From Cyclobacteriaceae bacterium (GTDB lineage Bacteria > Bacteroidota > Bacteroidia > Cytophagales > Cyclobacteriaceae), in the NCBI GenBank assembly GCA_020832375.1, contig JAFIEW010000005.1, positions 1-64,000 of the forward strand: 64,000 nt of DNA, given 5' to 3'. A model generated the notes under the pieces. The model did no database searches. It saw only the letters and a list, made by a program, of their open reading frames with translations, and had not been told where the DNA came from. The translations under genes and the position numbers were made by a program. Shown here one piece after another: positions 9,825 through 15,900 of the stretch (positions are counted from its first letter, which is position 1; each line of letters opens with the position of its first letter).

Positions 9825-9862
9825 AAAAAGAGAGCTGAAGGATGATTTCAGCTCTCTTTTTT
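9825..9862. terminator. Terminator at the end of the his operon
   Basis: AAAAAGAGAGCTGAA pairs with TTCAGCTCTCTTTTT. It directly abuts the hisB stop codon and has runs suitable for either strand. Confidence 0.92.
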
Positions 9863-10959
9863 TATAGCATCCCTTTCGTTGAGGGTAGTTTCGTTAATTT
9901 ACTCTCATCTCGCTCTACCGCTACTTTGATTGCTTTGGCTAATGCCTTAAAAATACCCTCTATTTTATGATGCTCATTGTCGCCCTCTACTTTGATGTTT
10001 AGATTGCATTTTGCAGCATCGCTGAATGACTTAAAGAAGTGAAAAAACATTTCTGTTGGCATGTCACCGATCATTTCTCTTTTGAAAGTAGCATCCCAGA
10101 CGATCCATGGCCTACCGCCAAAATCGATCGCTACCTGAGCTAGTGCGTCATCCATCGGTAGGAGGAAGCCATATCTGCGGATCCCTTTTTTGTCGCCGAT
10201 GGCTTTCAAAAATGCTTCTCCCAGAGCGATGGCAGTATCTTCTATGGTGTGATGCTCATCCACCTGCAAGTCACCTTCCACTTTTACGTACAAATCACAG
10301 TCTGAATGTTTTCCAAGCTGATCTAGCATATGATCAAAAAATGGCAGTCCTGTTTTTACCGTTGTCTTTCCGCTGCCATCGAGATTCAGTTCTATGCTGA
10401 TGGCAGTCTCGTTGGTTTCTCGTTCTATCTTAGCAATGCGAGAAGGTAATGCTAGGTATTGATAAATTGATCGCCAGTCTGTGCTTGTAAAGTCAGCATT
10501 GGCGTCATTTTCCTCAGCAATGCGAATACTACGACAGCCTAAGTTTTTAGCCAAAGTGACGTCGGTAGCGCGATCACCGATCACATATGAGCGATTCATG
10601 TCAACAGAACCGTCCATATAGGCTGTCATCATGCCCGTACCAGGCTTTCTTGTAGGCTTACCTTCTGATTCGAAGCTGCGGTCGATCAACACTTCAGAAA
10701 AGGTAATGCCTTCAGCCGCAAGGATGTCCATCATTTTGTTGTGCACCGGCCAAAAGTCTGATTCAGGAAAACTATCTGTACCTAAACCATCTTGATTGGT
10801 TACCATCACCAATTCAAAATCAGTATTTTCTACTAATTTTCTAAGCTCACTGATTGCGTAAGGCAAAAAAGCAAGCTTTTTAAAACTATCTACTTGAAAA
10901 TCTGTCTTTGGCTCTTCTATGATGGTGCCGTCTCGATCAATAAATAGGATTTTTCTCAT
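9862..10959 (-). CDS. hisB: Bifunctional histidinol-phosphatase / imidazoleglycerol-phosphate dehydratase HisB
   Basis: Catalyses two steps of histidine synthesis: dehydration of imidazoleglycerol phosphate and dephosphorylation of histidinol phosphate. The N-terminal HAD phosphatase has [10 protein letters not shown] and [16 protein letters not shown]. The C-terminal dehydratase (from about residue 170) has its metal-binding signatures [26 protein letters not shown] and [14 protein letters not shown] chose ATG 10959 ([11 protein letters not shown]), as the 14 codons before it are not conserved in type. It is the last of four his genes in a hisG-D-C-B operon and abuts a terminator. hisH, A, F and I are not in the window. 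Confidence 0.95.
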
Positions 10960-11120
10960 TTTTGTGTTTTGGTAGTCATGGTATTTGACTTCGACAATCA
11001 CTCGGGTTATAATTTGCTTTGGTTGAATACAGTTTTAAACCTAAGCTTAAAATATACATTACCCTTAAGCGAGCTTATCCACGAGAGTGATTGTGTAATT
11101 GCCACCATGTAAAGATAATT

Positions 11121-12200
11121 TTATAAAACTTCGGCAAGAGCTTTCATCTCTCTCATCAGGATGTTATTTTCATACTCAGTACCGATGGTAATGCGCACGC
11201 ATCCTTCGCAATGCACTTCTTTTGAACGATTTCTGATGATGACACCTTTTTCGCGAAGTAAGATACATAGCTTATCCGCCTCACTTACCTGCACTAGTAA
11301 AAAGTTGGCATGACTTGGAAATACCTGTTTTACATAGGGAATATCCAATAATTCCTTCGCCATCTTTTGTCGCATCTTAATCACCCCTTCGGTGGTATTT
11401 CTCATTTTTTCAGGCTGAGCAAGCACTTTCAATGCCTGTTCCTGACTCAAAGAGTTGATGTTGTATGGTGGCTTGATAGTATTTAAAATTTGGATGAGCG
11501 AGGGATGAGCAAAAGCCATTCCTACCCTAATACCTGCCAAGCCCCATGCTTTGCTTAGCGTCTGCAGCACCACCATATTGGGGTAATCTTTGATGAAGTG
11601 AATCCAGCTACTATTCGGTGAGAAATCGATATAAGCTTCATCAACCACTACTAAGCCCTTGAATTGTCTCGCAATGTGTTTAATGCTTTCATCTGAGATA
11701 TTGTTGCCAGTTGGATTATTGGGTGTGCAGATAAAAATCATTTTTGTATGCTTATCTACTGCATCCAGCGCTTTTTGAGCATCCAATTCAAAGCTTCCTG
11801 CTTCTAAATTGACTCGCTTTATTTCAATGCCATTAATTTCCGCTGAGGTCTTGTACATCCCGTAAGTGGGTGGTAAAATCAAGATATTATCCGTTTTTGG
11901 CTCACAAAAGGCACGCATCAATAAGTCGATTGCTTCATCACTTCCATTACCCAGAAAAAGGTGGTCGGCAGAGATACCTTTTAAACCCGAAATGGCAGCT
12001 TTCAGCGCTTTCTGAAGCGGATCTGGGTATCGATGATAAGGGAACTGCTCGCTGTAAGGGTTCTCATTGGCGTCTAAAAATACATTGGCACTGCCAGAAA
12101 ACTCACTTCTTGCCGATGAATAGGCTTCTATAGACTTCAAGTGAGGCCTTAGCAGTTGCTCGAAGCTGAAATTTGTTGAATTAGATATTGTGGTGGCCAT
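11121..12200 (-). CDS. hisC: Histidinol-phosphate aminotransferase HisC
   Basis: A 359-residue PLP enzyme of aminotransferase fold type I that converts imidazole-acetol phosphate and glutamate to histidinol phosphate. Visible features are LGNGSDEAIDLL, the CTPNNPTGN loop, the cofactor-contacting VVDEAYIDF, and the Schiff-base lysine in TLSKAWGLAGIRVG. The C-terminal CVRITIGT carries the substrate Arg. It is the third gene of the his operon, downstream of hisD across a 142-base structured gap and upstream of hisB. Confidence 0.95.
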   Translation of the reverse strand: MATTISNSTNFSFEQLLRPHLKSIEAYSSARSEFSGSANVFLDANENPYSEQFPYHRYPDPLQKALKAAISGLKGISADHLFLGNGSDEAIDLLMRAFCEPKTDNILILPPTYGMYKTSAEINGIEIKRVNLEAGSFELDAQKALDAVDKHTKMIFICTPNNPTGNNISDESIKHIARQFKGLVVVDEAYIDFSPNSSWIHFIKDYPNMVVLQTLSKAWGLAGIRVGMAFAHPSLIQILNTIKPPYNINSLSQEQALKVLAQPEKMRNTTEGVIKMRQKMAKELLDIPYVKQVFPSHANFLLVQVSEADKLCILLREKGVIIRNRSKEVHCEGCVRITIGTEYENNILMREMKALAEVL

Positions 12201-12267: not shown

Positions 12268-12348
12268 AAATAGCATTGCGAATTCATCAGCTTACTTGAA
12301 AAGGCTTCGCCTTTATAAGTCAAGATTAAATGCTCAAGAATGCTATTT
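12268..12348. repeat. Nested inverted repeat between hisD and hisC
   Basis: AAATAGCATT (12268-12277) pairs with AATGCTATTT (12339-12348, overlapping the hisD stop). Inside it is a small AAAGGC-TTC-GCCTTT hairpin (about 12299-12313). There is no T-run at the stem base, so it looks less like a terminator than an mRNA-processing or stability structure. Confidence 0.5.
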
Positions 12349-13629
12349 AGCTAACTTTCTCAATCGAATGCTCACCGCCTCTTTATGAGCGTGGAGGTTT
12401 TCGGCTGCTGCCATATACTCTATCGAAGGTCCTAGATCTTTAAGTCCTTTTTTAGTAATTCGCTGAAAGGTGATTTTTTTTACAAAGCTATCTAGCGACA
12501 CCCCGCTGTATGATCGTGCATAGCCATAAGTAGGCAGGGTATGATTAGTACCAGAAGCATAATCGCCAGCAGATTCTGGTGTATAGTGCCCCACAAAAAC
12601 AGATCCTGCATTGATGATCTGATCGGCGACCTCGTCGGCATCATCGGTACTCAAGATAAGATGCTCTGCCGCATACTCATTAAGCAAATCGATGGCCTCT
12701 TCTCTACTTTTAAGATAGATCGCTCTACTGTGTGTGAGTGCTTTTGCTGCAATTTCTTTTCTTGGTAGGTCAGCAAGTTGCTTTTTTACTGCCGCTAATG
12801 TTTCATCTATTTTGGCTTTGCTAGTGCTTACTAGAATCACCTGTGAGTCAGGGCCGTGCTCCGCTTGCGATAGCAAATCCGAGGCTACAAAATCTGCATC
12901 TGAGCTGTCATCTGCGTATACAGCTACCTCAGACGGCCCCGCAGGCATGTCGATGGCGGTACCTTTTTGACTTACCATCTGCTTGGCAACAGTTACATAT
13001 TGATTACCTGGGCCGAAAATTTTATCTACCGCAGGTATGGACTCAGTACCATAGGCCATGGCTGCGATGGCTTGAGCACCACCTACTTTATAAATTTTAT
13101 CAATACCAATGAGAGAGGCACTGTATAAAATTGCTGGGTTGATGGCCGCCAAATGATCGGTAGGTGTGCAAATAATAATCTCATTACAGCCTGCAATTTT
13201 GGCAGGTATACCTAGCATAAGCACGGTAGAAAATAAAGGTGCCGTACCTCCAGGTACATATAAACCAACTTTTTGAATGGCTACACTCTTTCTTCTACAG
13301 GTTATACCCGGGCTAGTTTCTAAGATGAGCTCCGCCTGTGCTTGAGCCTCATGAAACTTTTTGATGTTGTCATAAGCTCGCTTGATCGCGTCCTTAAGTT
13401 CAGGTTTTACTTGTGATGAGGCCGCTTTAAGTTCTTCATTACTTACCGCAAGCTGCTTCAAATCTACTTGATCGTATTCTTTTGCAAATCGACGAAGCGC
13501 AGTATCTCCCTTTTTCTTGACCTGCTTAAGAATTGGTTTTACTATTTTTCTTACGGTACTCGACTTTTGAGCGGGTCTTTCAAGGATTTTAGACCATTGG
13601 TCTCTCGTCGGTTTTTGATATATTTTCAT
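12343..13629 (-). CDS. hisD: Histidinol dehydrogenase HisD
   Basis: A 428-residue zinc and NAD dependent enzyme that oxidises histidinol to histidine in two steps. Signatures visible are the glycine-rich GLYVPGGTAPLFSTVLML, KIFGPGNQYVTVAK, DMPAGPSEVAVYAD, the catalytic pair in SQAEHGPDSQ, and the C-terminal TNHTLPTYGYARSYSGVSLDSF. Length is normal. It is the second gene of the operon, 172 bases after hisG, a spacing long enough to hide a secondary promoter though none is convincing. Confidence 0.96.
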   Translation of the reverse strand: MKIYQKPTRDQWSKILERPAQKSSTVRKIVKPILKQVKKKGDTALRRFAKEYDQVDLKQLAVSNEELKAASSQVKPELKDAIKRAYDNIKKFHEAQAQAELILETSPGITCRRKSVAIQKVGLYVPGGTAPLFSTVLMLGIPAKIAGCNEIIICTPTDHLAAINPAILYSASLIGIDKIYKVGGAQAIAAMAYGTESIPAVDKIFGPGNQYVTVAKQMVSQKGTAIDMPAGPSEVAVYADDSSDADFVASDLLSQAEHGPDSQVILVSTSKAKIDETLAAVKKQLADLPRKEIAAKALTHSRAIYLKSREEAIDLLNEYAAEHLILSTDDADEVADQIINAGSVFVGHYTPESAGDYASGTNHTLPTYGYARSYSGVSLDSFVKKITFQRITKKGLKDLGPSIEYMAAAENLHAHKEAVSIRLRKLAK

Positions 13630-13801: not shown

Positions 13802-14662
13802 CTATTGGATCATTTTTTCTATTGGTAAAACCAATACCCCTTCAGCACCTGCAGCTTTAATCTTTTCTATCACCTCCCAAAACCGATCTTCTTGAATGAC
13901 CGAATGCAAAGAACTCCAACCTTCTTTTGCAAGAGGCATGACAGTAGGACTGTTTACACCCGGTAAATATGCTTTTATTTCTTCTATGCTCTCATTAGGC
14001 GCATTGAGTAGGATGTACTTATAGTTGCGAGCCGATAGTACGGTGTCAATTCTGAAAAGAATTTGCTCCAGTAACTTTCGTTTTTCCGCACTCAGGCCTT
14101 TGTTTGCAATCATTACCGCTTCACTTTTTATCACCTCTTCCACTTCTTTAAGGCCATTAGTGAAAAGAGTAGAGCCACTGCTTACGATATCGCATACGCC
14201 ATCTGCAAGACCGATACCAGGTGCAATTTCCACCGATCCGCTTATTTCGTGTATGGAAGCATTAACACCTTTTGACTTGAAGTAGTCTTTTAATATTTCA
14301 GGATAGGAAGTAGCTACTCTTTTTCCTTCAAAGTAGCTTGCGTCTGAGTATTCTTTTTCCTTTGGTATGGCTAGTGAAAGCCTGCACTTTGAAAAGCCTA
14401 GTCGTTTGCTCAGTTCAACATCTGGTTTGGCCTCAAGAAGAACGTTTTCACCTACAATACCGATATCAGCCACCCCGTCGGCCACATATCCAGGTATGTC
14501 ATCATCCCTCAAAAATAAAAATTCAATAGGGAAGTTAGTAGCTGAGGACTTTAGTTTGCCCATTCCATTATTGAACTTAATGCCGCACTCTTTGATTAAT
14601 TTTCGTGAATCGTCGCTGAGACGCCCAGACTTTTGTAGAGCTAATCGAATTACATTGTCCAT
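13802..14662 (-). CDS. hisG: ATP phosphoribosyltransferase HisG (long form)
   Basis: The first and committed step of histidine synthesis, condensing ATP with PRPP. At 286 residues with a C-terminal ACT-like domain (about 215-286, with YILLNAP and VHSVIQEDRFWEVIEKIKAAGA), it is the long, self-regulated form that needs no HisZ and is inhibited by histidine. The PRPP loop is EIAPGIGLADGVCDIVSSGSTL. The ATG at 14662 follows 92 bases after the stop of a histidine-rich leader ORF, so this gene is expected to be controlled both by histidine feedback on the enzyme and by the leader. Confidence 0.95.
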   Translation of the reverse strand: MDNVIRLALQKSGRLSDDSRKLIKECGIKFNNGMGKLKSSATNFPIEFLFLRDDDIPGYVADGVADIGIVGENVLLEAKPDVELSKRLGFSKCRLSLAIPKEKEYSDASYFEGKRVATSYPEILKDYFKSKGVNASIHEISGSVEIAPGIGLADGVCDIVSSGSTLFTNGLKEVEEVIKSEAVMIANKGLSAEKRKLLEQILFRIDTVLSARNYKYILLNAPNESIEEIKAYLPGVNSPTVMPLAKEGWSSLHSVIQEDRFWEVIEKIKAAGAEGVLVLPIEKMIQ

Positions 14663-14754
14663 GATAGACTTAAGTTTTTTTTATGAAGAAAATGTTTGAA
14701 TTGCAAAAGCTAAATGATTTTGACCTCCAGAAAGAGAGCCATAAATGCCATAAA

Positions 14755-14826
14755 TTAGGCACAAAAATGATGAGCACCATGAAGATGGTGATGATGTAGA
14801 GGATTGGTATGTGATAAAAATATCAT
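14755..14826 (-). CDS. hisL: Histidine-rich leader peptide of the his operon
   Basis: A 23-codon ORF with 8 histidines, including PLHHHHLHGAHHF, read on the minus strand between a consensus promoter and hisG. Runs of codons for the pathway's end product immediately upstream of a biosynthetic operon are the classic sign of ribosome-mediated attenuation. A 6-bp stem CACCAT/ATGGTG with a CTTC loop (14775-14790) sits inside the His-codon block and is followed by CTCATCATTTTT. A second weak stem, TGCC/GGCA, covers the stop region. I do not see a strong GC-rich terminator before hisG, so the switching mechanism is unresolved. The ATG lies only 4 nt beyond the promoter's -7 box. Confidence 0.85.
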   Translation of the reverse strand: MIFLSHTNPLHHHHLHGAHHFCA

Positions 14827-14830
14827 AATG

Positions 14831-14861
14831 CAAATATACCCTGCTTGATTTATTTACCAAA
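14831..14861 (-). promoter_or_regulatory. Consensus Bacteroidota promoter of the his operon
   Basis: On the minus strand, TTTG (14861-14858), a spacer of exactly 19 nt and TATATTTG (14838-14831) match the primary sigma consensus TTTG-N19-TAnnTTTG. The expected transcription start falls at or next to the ATG of the leader ORF. Confidence 0.85.
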
Positions 14862-15027: not shown

Positions 15028-15900
15028 CTATTTTTTACTCTCAAGGCTTTTTAAACTCATCGTCCAAACGGGTCTCTTTGCATGGTTGACGATATCCTCT
15101 GCTATGCTACCACTCAAGAAGTGCCATATCCCTGATCTGCCTGTCGTACCCATAGCAATCATATCCATATTGTTTTCTTTGGCGAAATCTAATATTCCCT
15201 CTTCCTCGCTCACTTCGCTAGTAATATGGACACTAGCATTTTTTAGATTGTAGGTTTTAATTAGTTCTCTGAGCTGTCCTTTTACTAATTTATCTCTTTC
15301 GAAGTTATTAGGCGTGTTTACCTTTAGAATGTGTAAGTTAGCATCAAATTCAGACTGCAAAGTACTTACCTTTTCCATCAATTTGTCCATTAGTTGCTTT
15401 TCTAAACCTAATCCAGTGGCAAATAGGATGTTCTTAATATCACTGACTTTCATTGGATTAGTAACGGTAATTACGGGACACTTAGCATACCTAACCATTT
15501 TTTCAGCATTTGAACCAATGGCAATTTCTTCAAGACCAGATGCACCTCTTGTACCCATTACCACCAAATCAATATCTGATTGATCAATGTCTTTGGCTAA
15601 AACTTGATAAGGAGAACCAGGGACTGCCCACCCTTTTGCATCAACATTGGCCATGAAGTCTTCATCAACAAGCTTTTGAAGTTGTGTTTCTGCCTGTTCT
15701 TTCATTTTTACAACCCATACATTGTCCATCGGGTCGGATTGTACTGCACCAGTAAAGGTCATCATGGTTCTTTTTGCAGGATATTCAATTACGTGAACCA
15801 GTCTTAATTCAGCACCGTGTTTTACGGCCAATTCAGCCGCAAATTTCGTAGCATTGATAGATTCTTCTGAAAAATCAACAGGGACTAAGATTTTTTTCAT
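15028..15900 (-). CDS. Tandem universal stress protein (UspA family)
   Basis: A 290-residue cytosolic protein made of two UspA domains (about 1-145 and 150-285). Each carries the ATP-binding G-2x-G-9x-G(S/T) signature: GTRGASGLEEIAIGS in the first and GTTGRSGIWHFLSGS in the second. Such two-domain proteins bind ATP and are usually raised in starvation or stress; the exact role is not assignable. The ATG start begins the first beta strand MKKILVPVDFSEES. The gene is monocistronic and followed by its own terminator. Confidence 0.93.
   Translation of the reverse strand: MKKILVPVDFSEESINATKFAAELAVKHGAELRLVHVIEYPAKRTMMTFTGAVQSDPMDNVWVVKMKEQAETQLQKLVDEDFMANVDAKGWAVPGSPYQVLAKDIDQSDIDLVVMGTRGASGLEEIAIGSNAEKMVRYAKCPVITVTNPMKVSDIKNILFATGLGLEKQLMDKLMEKVSTLQSEFDANLHILKVNTPNNFERDKLVKGQLRELIKTYNLKNASVHITSEVSEEEGILDFAKENNMDMIAMGTTGRSGIWHFLSGSIAEDIVNHAKRPVWTMSLKSLESKK

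Follow-up and report, generated by a model that had tools for sequence, protein, structure and literature searches.

How might a ribosome that reads a histidine-rich leader peptide control the operon behind it when no terminator stands between the two? That leader peptides control amino-acid operons is textbook biology, and the starvation-type examples known to us rely on an intrinsic terminator. The his locus described here lies on the minus strand of a 64,000-nt stretch of DNA, which we refer to as the window; it carries a His leader and has no terminator-like site between that leader and hisG.

Read 5' to 3', the locus begins with TTTG (14861-14858), a 19-nt spacer and TATATTTG (14838-14831), which together form a Bacteroidota-type promoter (14831-14861). 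The four nucleotides CATT separate the TATATTTG box from the leader ATG at 14826. The open reading frame that starts there (14755-14826, stop codon 14757-14755) encodes MIFLSHTNPLHHHHLHGAHHFCA, 23 codons of which eight specify histidine (codons 6, 11-14, 16, 19 and 20). The run of four (codons 11-14) occupies 14785-14796, and the terminal pair (codons 19-20; 14767-14772), the presumed stall site, lies three codons before the stop. A spacer of 92 nt without a terminator (14663-14754), our candidate Rho-sensitive region, leads to the start of hisG at 14662. This gene (ATP phosphoribosyltransferase; 13802-14662) is the first of hisGDCB, and the open reading frames of hisD (12343-13629), hisC (11121-12200) and hisB (9862-11001), identified from sequence alone, follow it on the same strand. 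The sole terminator-like site nearby (14999-14965, also minus strand) sits upstream of the his promoter, where the hairpin probably ends the preceding transcription unit. The upstream same-strand gene (15028-15900) resembles a universal-stress-type protein and is separated from the his promoter by this likely terminator. A preliminary description of the stretch had named the promoter, the 23-codon frame with its eight histidines, four of them consecutive, and the lack of a strong terminator after it; each of these is present as described, on the minus strand, which that description had left unstated.

Could so many His codons have come together by chance? The densest eight-codon window in the 250 nt before hisG holds five of them. 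None of 2000 letter shuffles of this region reached five (the maximum, four, was seen twice), and only two of 2806 tiles of 250 nt, taken from both strands of the window and its relatives, did so, in agreement with the earlier claim that the composition is unlikely to be accidental. The window belongs to the family Cyclobacteriaceae, in which 365 of 391 genomes contain hisG; we compared about 120 of their upstream regions and added a number of regions from elsewhere in the order. The nearest named relatives by HisG are members of the family (Belliella, Algoriphagus, Echinicola, Cyclobacterium, Roseivirga, Marinoscillum and others). In nearly all Cyclobacteriaceae genera a short His-rich reading frame precedes hisG, mostly at a distance of 50-140 nt; the best window upstream of hisG most often contains four to five His codons and at the highest eight, and the codons persist in relatives down to about 70% HisG identity. 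His codons are retained while their synonyms vary (208 CAT and 48 CAC in class B, defined below), and the leader peptides of one large subclade end in HH-x-HH-S-S-stop. A His-rich frame in this place in nearly all genera of the family argues for a real, conserved leader peptide, and we are highly confident that the frame in the window is a functional one. The preliminary description had looked to relatives for a conserved frame, and had taken loss of the His codons there as the sign of an error; conservation across the family is what we found. The locus also has the two general marks of ribosome-mediated amino-acid leaders, namely a short frame rich in the product amino acid directly before the biosynthetic operon (8 His in 23 codons) and regulatory codons that are kept in relatives. 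Such a leader almost certainly enables the cell to sense a shortage of histidine through a stalled ribosome, and would make expression histidine-dependent.

The leaders of the family fall into two classes. Class A comprises 16 genera with a terminator of hairpin and U-tract; class B comprises 49 genera, the window included, in which we found no intrinsic terminator between the leader frame and hisG. The class A terminator hairpin has a predicted stability of about -14 to -21 kcal/mol, and a U-tract lies between it and hisG. In most class A leaders the reading frame ends in a sequence that can pair with the 5' arm of the terminator, and the two change together (Fisher 7e-11). Class A is textbook attenuation, with a terminator and an antiterminator in the tail of the leader frame. 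Rfam held no family matching the class A examples searched (L067 and L075). Leaders with a His-rich frame and a hairpin/U-tract terminator before hisG are also common elsewhere in Bacteroidota, where several further families have them (L313, L315-L322, L324-L328). In a HisG tree, a branch supported at 100/99 sets class A apart, and the window lies on the other side of it, with class B. Because class A lies on one side of a single branch, the classes are related by essentially one switch, which the tree would allow to have run in either direction; and because each class is a single HisG clade, the genus counts given throughout are not independent events. The attenuation proposed in the preliminary description accordingly divides in two: the His leader peptide stands, and the textbook mechanism is found instead in the sister HisG clade, class A. 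Its supposition of a switch unlike that of enterobacteria is supported as well, the window being a member of the clade without terminators.

What do the class B leaders have in common? The last His codon lies exactly two codons before the stop in 35 of the 49 genera (three in the window); in class A this distance scatters between 2 and 11. A hairpin, P1, begins directly at the last His codon and mostly holds the stop codon in its loop, as in the class B example AUUCCUCC-UAA-GGAGGAAU. The 30-nt window containing P1 folds in class B with a mean of -7.06 kcal/mol, compared with -2.94 for shuffled sequences (Fisher 2e-27). At the last His codon, a stem with 6 bp or more begins in 32/49 class B genera and 1/16 class A genera (shuffles: mean 1.04, maximum 4). 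Within one loop register, 14 cells were double-changed where shuffles gave 2.1 (0/500), and a second count by register yielded 8 where shuffles gave 2.6 (0/500). Both counts come from members picked for a stem in the given register, and this choice itself makes pairing somewhat more likely. The commonest register hardly varies and hence carries no information on covariation. In a covariance-model alignment in which registers with 3-nt and 4-nt loops were mixed, pair counts were not above those of shuffles, and RNAalifold with mutual information, applied to a 31-sequence subclade, recovered P1 alone, probably because loops of unequal length misalign.

Class B leaders show weaker yet significant folding before the His cluster (P0) and downstream of P1 (P3). 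No U-tract follows P1 or P3 in this class, and folding revealed no consistent alternative partner for the 3' arm of P1. Co-varying stems, which the preliminary description had suggested looking for, do exist in class B; they do not form a terminator/antiterminator pair, and the main stem is the hairpin around the leader stop. In the window, the predicted P0 is CACCAU-CUUC-AUGGUG (14775-14790), before the terminal His pair, and the predicted P3 is UGGCUCUCUUUCUGGAGGUCA (14721-14741), without a following U-tract; both agree with a class-wide folding signal. The predicted P1, GUGCC-UAAUUUAU-GGCAU around the leader stop (14745-14762), is weak, with 5 bp and an 8-nt loop, and the P1 covariance model misses it.

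The promoter stands unusually close to the frame that it serves. Among 48 leaders with a recognisable box, 38 have the leader ATG 2-10 nt after TAnnTTTG, compared with 4 of 21 controls, and a distance this short suggests that the mRNAs are probably leaderless or nearly so. Such mRNAs are rare in Bacteroides, where about 3.7% of 5' UTRs are shorter than 10 nt (PMC7366714). A AACGTATATTGCATNC-like sequence is conserved directly before the hisG ATG in the leaders of one subclade (L004, L006-L008, L010, L012, L017, L113, L118). It resembles the -7 box (TAnnTTTG), and a second promoter that would give a leaderless hisG mRNA there is possible.

Upon examination of base composition, the two classes separate again. 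Between the leader stop and hisG, C exceeds G in 44 of 49 class B genera (means C 0.220, G 0.131) and in 6 of 16 class A genera, where both means are 0.170; in a control stretch upstream of the class B promoters it does so in 17 of 49. Over the last 95 nt before hisG, class B leaders have a mean C minus G of +0.110; the corresponding values are -0.012 for class A and +0.015 for the 112 upstream segments that served as controls (p 2e-13). The window has C 0.264 and G 0.083 in the leader frame, and C 0.174 and G 0.120 in the spacer. The His codons themselves, CAU and CAC, contain C and no G. Sites of Rho utilization (rut) are C-rich and G-poor (PMC7815308), and that of tnaC lies next to the stop codon, where an arrested ribosome blocks Rho (PMC10941005). 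Both elements of the tnaC/speFL layout recur here: C-rich, G-poor RNA lies beside the leader stop, and stall codons lie at the end of the frame, next to the putative rut site (the last His codon of the window is three codons before the stop). A stricter rut rule finds no site in the window. A rule modelled on RhoTermPredict, under which the window leader is not called, gave a weak enrichment, with calls in 10/49 class B leaders, 5/124 controls and 0/16 class A leaders. In a second, distant group, from another taxonomic class of the same phylum (family f41, L330-L334), His codons lie 0-1 codons before the stop and no terminator is evident; the three spacers counted there contain 14-19 C and 3-5 G.

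Rho itself is present in 95 of 98 relatives, and we did not find it in the 4.1-Mb draft genome from which the window comes. In two relatives whose neighbourhoods were read, rho follows recO. In the window's genome, a lipoprotein gene comes next after recO (12808-13494 on contig C50, L266), and 1.2 kb separate recO from the end of the contig. An assembly gap that hides rho is thus plausible, if unproven, and loss is also possible. Were the gene truly absent, the Rho step could not hold for the window.

C-rich, G-poor RNA at the leader stop and terminal stall codons together reproduce the layout of tnaC, and on these grounds we favor ribosome-masked, Rho-dependent attenuation of the tnaC/speFL kind, driven here by histidine starvation. 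Taken as a whole, the proposed chain has in our estimation an even chance of being right. The sequence itself suggests its opening. Transcription would start at or just before the leader ATG, to judge from the promoter motif, and give a nearly leaderless mRNA in which the His codons end the reading frame, in most of class B directly before the hairpin around the stop codon, and an untranslated stretch rich in C and poor in G extends to hisG. When histidyl-tRNA is plentiful, the ribosome would finish the peptide and leave. The G-poor run of His codons and the C-rich spacer, on either side of the stop-codon hairpin, would then be exposed to Rho, which would end transcription before hisG or early within it. 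When histidine is short, the ribosome would be held on the terminal His codons, covering the end of the frame and keeping the stop-codon hairpin open, so that Rho could not load and RNA polymerase would proceed into hisGDCB.

Other mechanisms could account for parts of this anatomy. If an intrinsic terminator has gone unrecognised, classical attenuation would apply: P3 (or P1) would halt polymerase although no clear U-tract follows, unless a stalled ribosome prevented it. Class A and other families of the phylum do use this design with clear terminators, and P3 folds better than its shuffles. The missing U-tract nevertheless disfavours intrinsic termination, since P1 and P3 of class B lack one whereas the class A terminators are canonical. 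With the 3' arm of P1 showing no consistent alternative partner on folding, and with nothing resembling a terminator in the spacer of the window, we regard this reading as improbable. Translational attenuation, in which the position of the leader ribosome opens or closes the hisG start, or in which reinitiation hands ribosomes over to hisG, is to our minds equally doubtful. It would make sense of a P1 that surrounds the leader stop, and of leader ribosomes that terminate upstream of hisG; but the hisG start folds no better than shuffles, its predicted accessibility is 0.588 with the leader free and 0.589 with the ribosome stalled (48 genera, p 0.996), and 92 nt (39-140 in most relatives) is a long gap for reinitiation. 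Sequestration of the hisG ribosome-binding site, tried as a candidate, is disfavoured by this lack of extra structure and by a predicted accessibility that does not depend on ribosome position.

A further account places control in mRNA stability or in an RNA-binding protein. Its starting point is a near-invariant ACAUAUCGCCC that follows shortly after P1 in a Belliella/Echinicola-like subclade (L003-L012, L017, L086-L126 and others), in which CAUAUC also recurs inside the leader frame in varying reading frames. Recurrence irrespective of frame is what a signal at the RNA level predicts, and we read it from the sequence as such. The hairpins and ACAUAUCGCCC would on this account be sites for a nuclease or a protein, shielded by ribosomes on the His codons. 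A scan of eight genomes detected no copy of ACAUAUCGCCC outside his leaders in a leader-like context, which counts in favour of this account; a general ACAUAUCGCCC regulon was rejected from the same scan, the non-leader copies lying mostly in coding sequence or on the opposite strand. The Rho model assigns no role to ACAUAUCGCCC. Against a stability or protein mechanism, the element is restricted to the subclade and unrecognisable after P1 in the window, and the excess of C over G is not predicted; we hold it to be rather unlikely. The last possibility is that the frame is vestigial, or that its richness in histidine has no regulatory role in the window's species. The weak P1 and the failure to find Rho in the draft genome would suit it. 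It has to contend with eight His codons, a promoter, a start codon and a position that are all intact, and with relatives at about 70% HisG identity that keep the His codons, and we consider it very improbable.

How does the ribosome-masked, Rho-dependent attenuation proposed for this locus compare with known leaders? As in the enterobacterial hisL, a short frame with a His run lies between the promoter and hisG, the first gene of the operon, and the presumed signal is starvation for His-tRNA. Unlike hisL, the window and class B have no intrinsic terminator, and no antiterminator pairing was found in them; the window has no terminator for such a pairing to oppose, and class A possesses both elements. 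Also unlike hisL, class B places its His codons at the end of the frame and a hairpin around the stop codon. The window has no match in Rfam: none reached the gathering score, and the weak matches obtained at E values up to 10 included none that was credible. Class A leaders resemble the window in gene, place, His-rich frame and a comparable distance from leader to hisG; they differ in having a terminator with an antiterminator in the tail of the frame, a His run in mid-frame, no excess of C over G and a separate HisG clade. With tnaC and speFL the window shares a putative stall site at or near the end of the frame, C-rich, G-poor RNA beside the leader stop and, as we propose, masking by the ribosome against Rho (PMC10941005, PMC7815308). 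tnaC and speFL sense free Trp or ornithine through arrest by the nascent peptide, whereas in the window starvation for charged tRNA at the His codons would stall the ribosome. The window's operon, unlike theirs, is biosynthetic.

Bacteroid-trp RNA, which is linked to the trp operon, differs from the window leader in operon and in structure, and the window shows no Rfam match to it. It is listed as a cis-regulatory RNA of Bacteroidota (RF01692; PMC2864571). The authors of a 2010 survey knew of no demonstrated leader-peptide system beyond Proteobacteria and Actinobacteria (PMC2965389). In the literature that we searched, no terminatorless his leader of Bacteroidota with a stop-codon hairpin and Rho-like composition is described. 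A comparative study by Vitreschak et al. in 2004 reportedly described attenuators in Bacteroidetes/Chlorobi. The His leader peptide is thus of a kind already known, and the terminatorless variant with a hairpin around the stop codon is one that we did not find in the literature searched.

Leader peptides have scarcely been studied in the phylum Bacteroidota. If confirmed, the nearly leaderless mRNA of this leader would offer a clear example of a regulator translated by leaderless initiation, and the prediction concerning Rho is directly testable in the culturable Algoriphagus, Belliella, Echinicola, Cyclobacterium and Roseivirga. Tentatively, and at somewhat less than even chance, we suggest that stalling upon starvation controls a biosynthetic operon whose leader His codons double as part of a Rho loading site. 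With the same reserve, the leader frame may be sensor and masked element in one, and may, in a large clade of Cytophagales, have taken the place of an attenuator with an intrinsic terminator, or have come before one. Sister clades within one family, one with a terminator and the other with a C-rich, G-poor leader without one, amount to a natural experiment on how one mode of termination is replaced by another.
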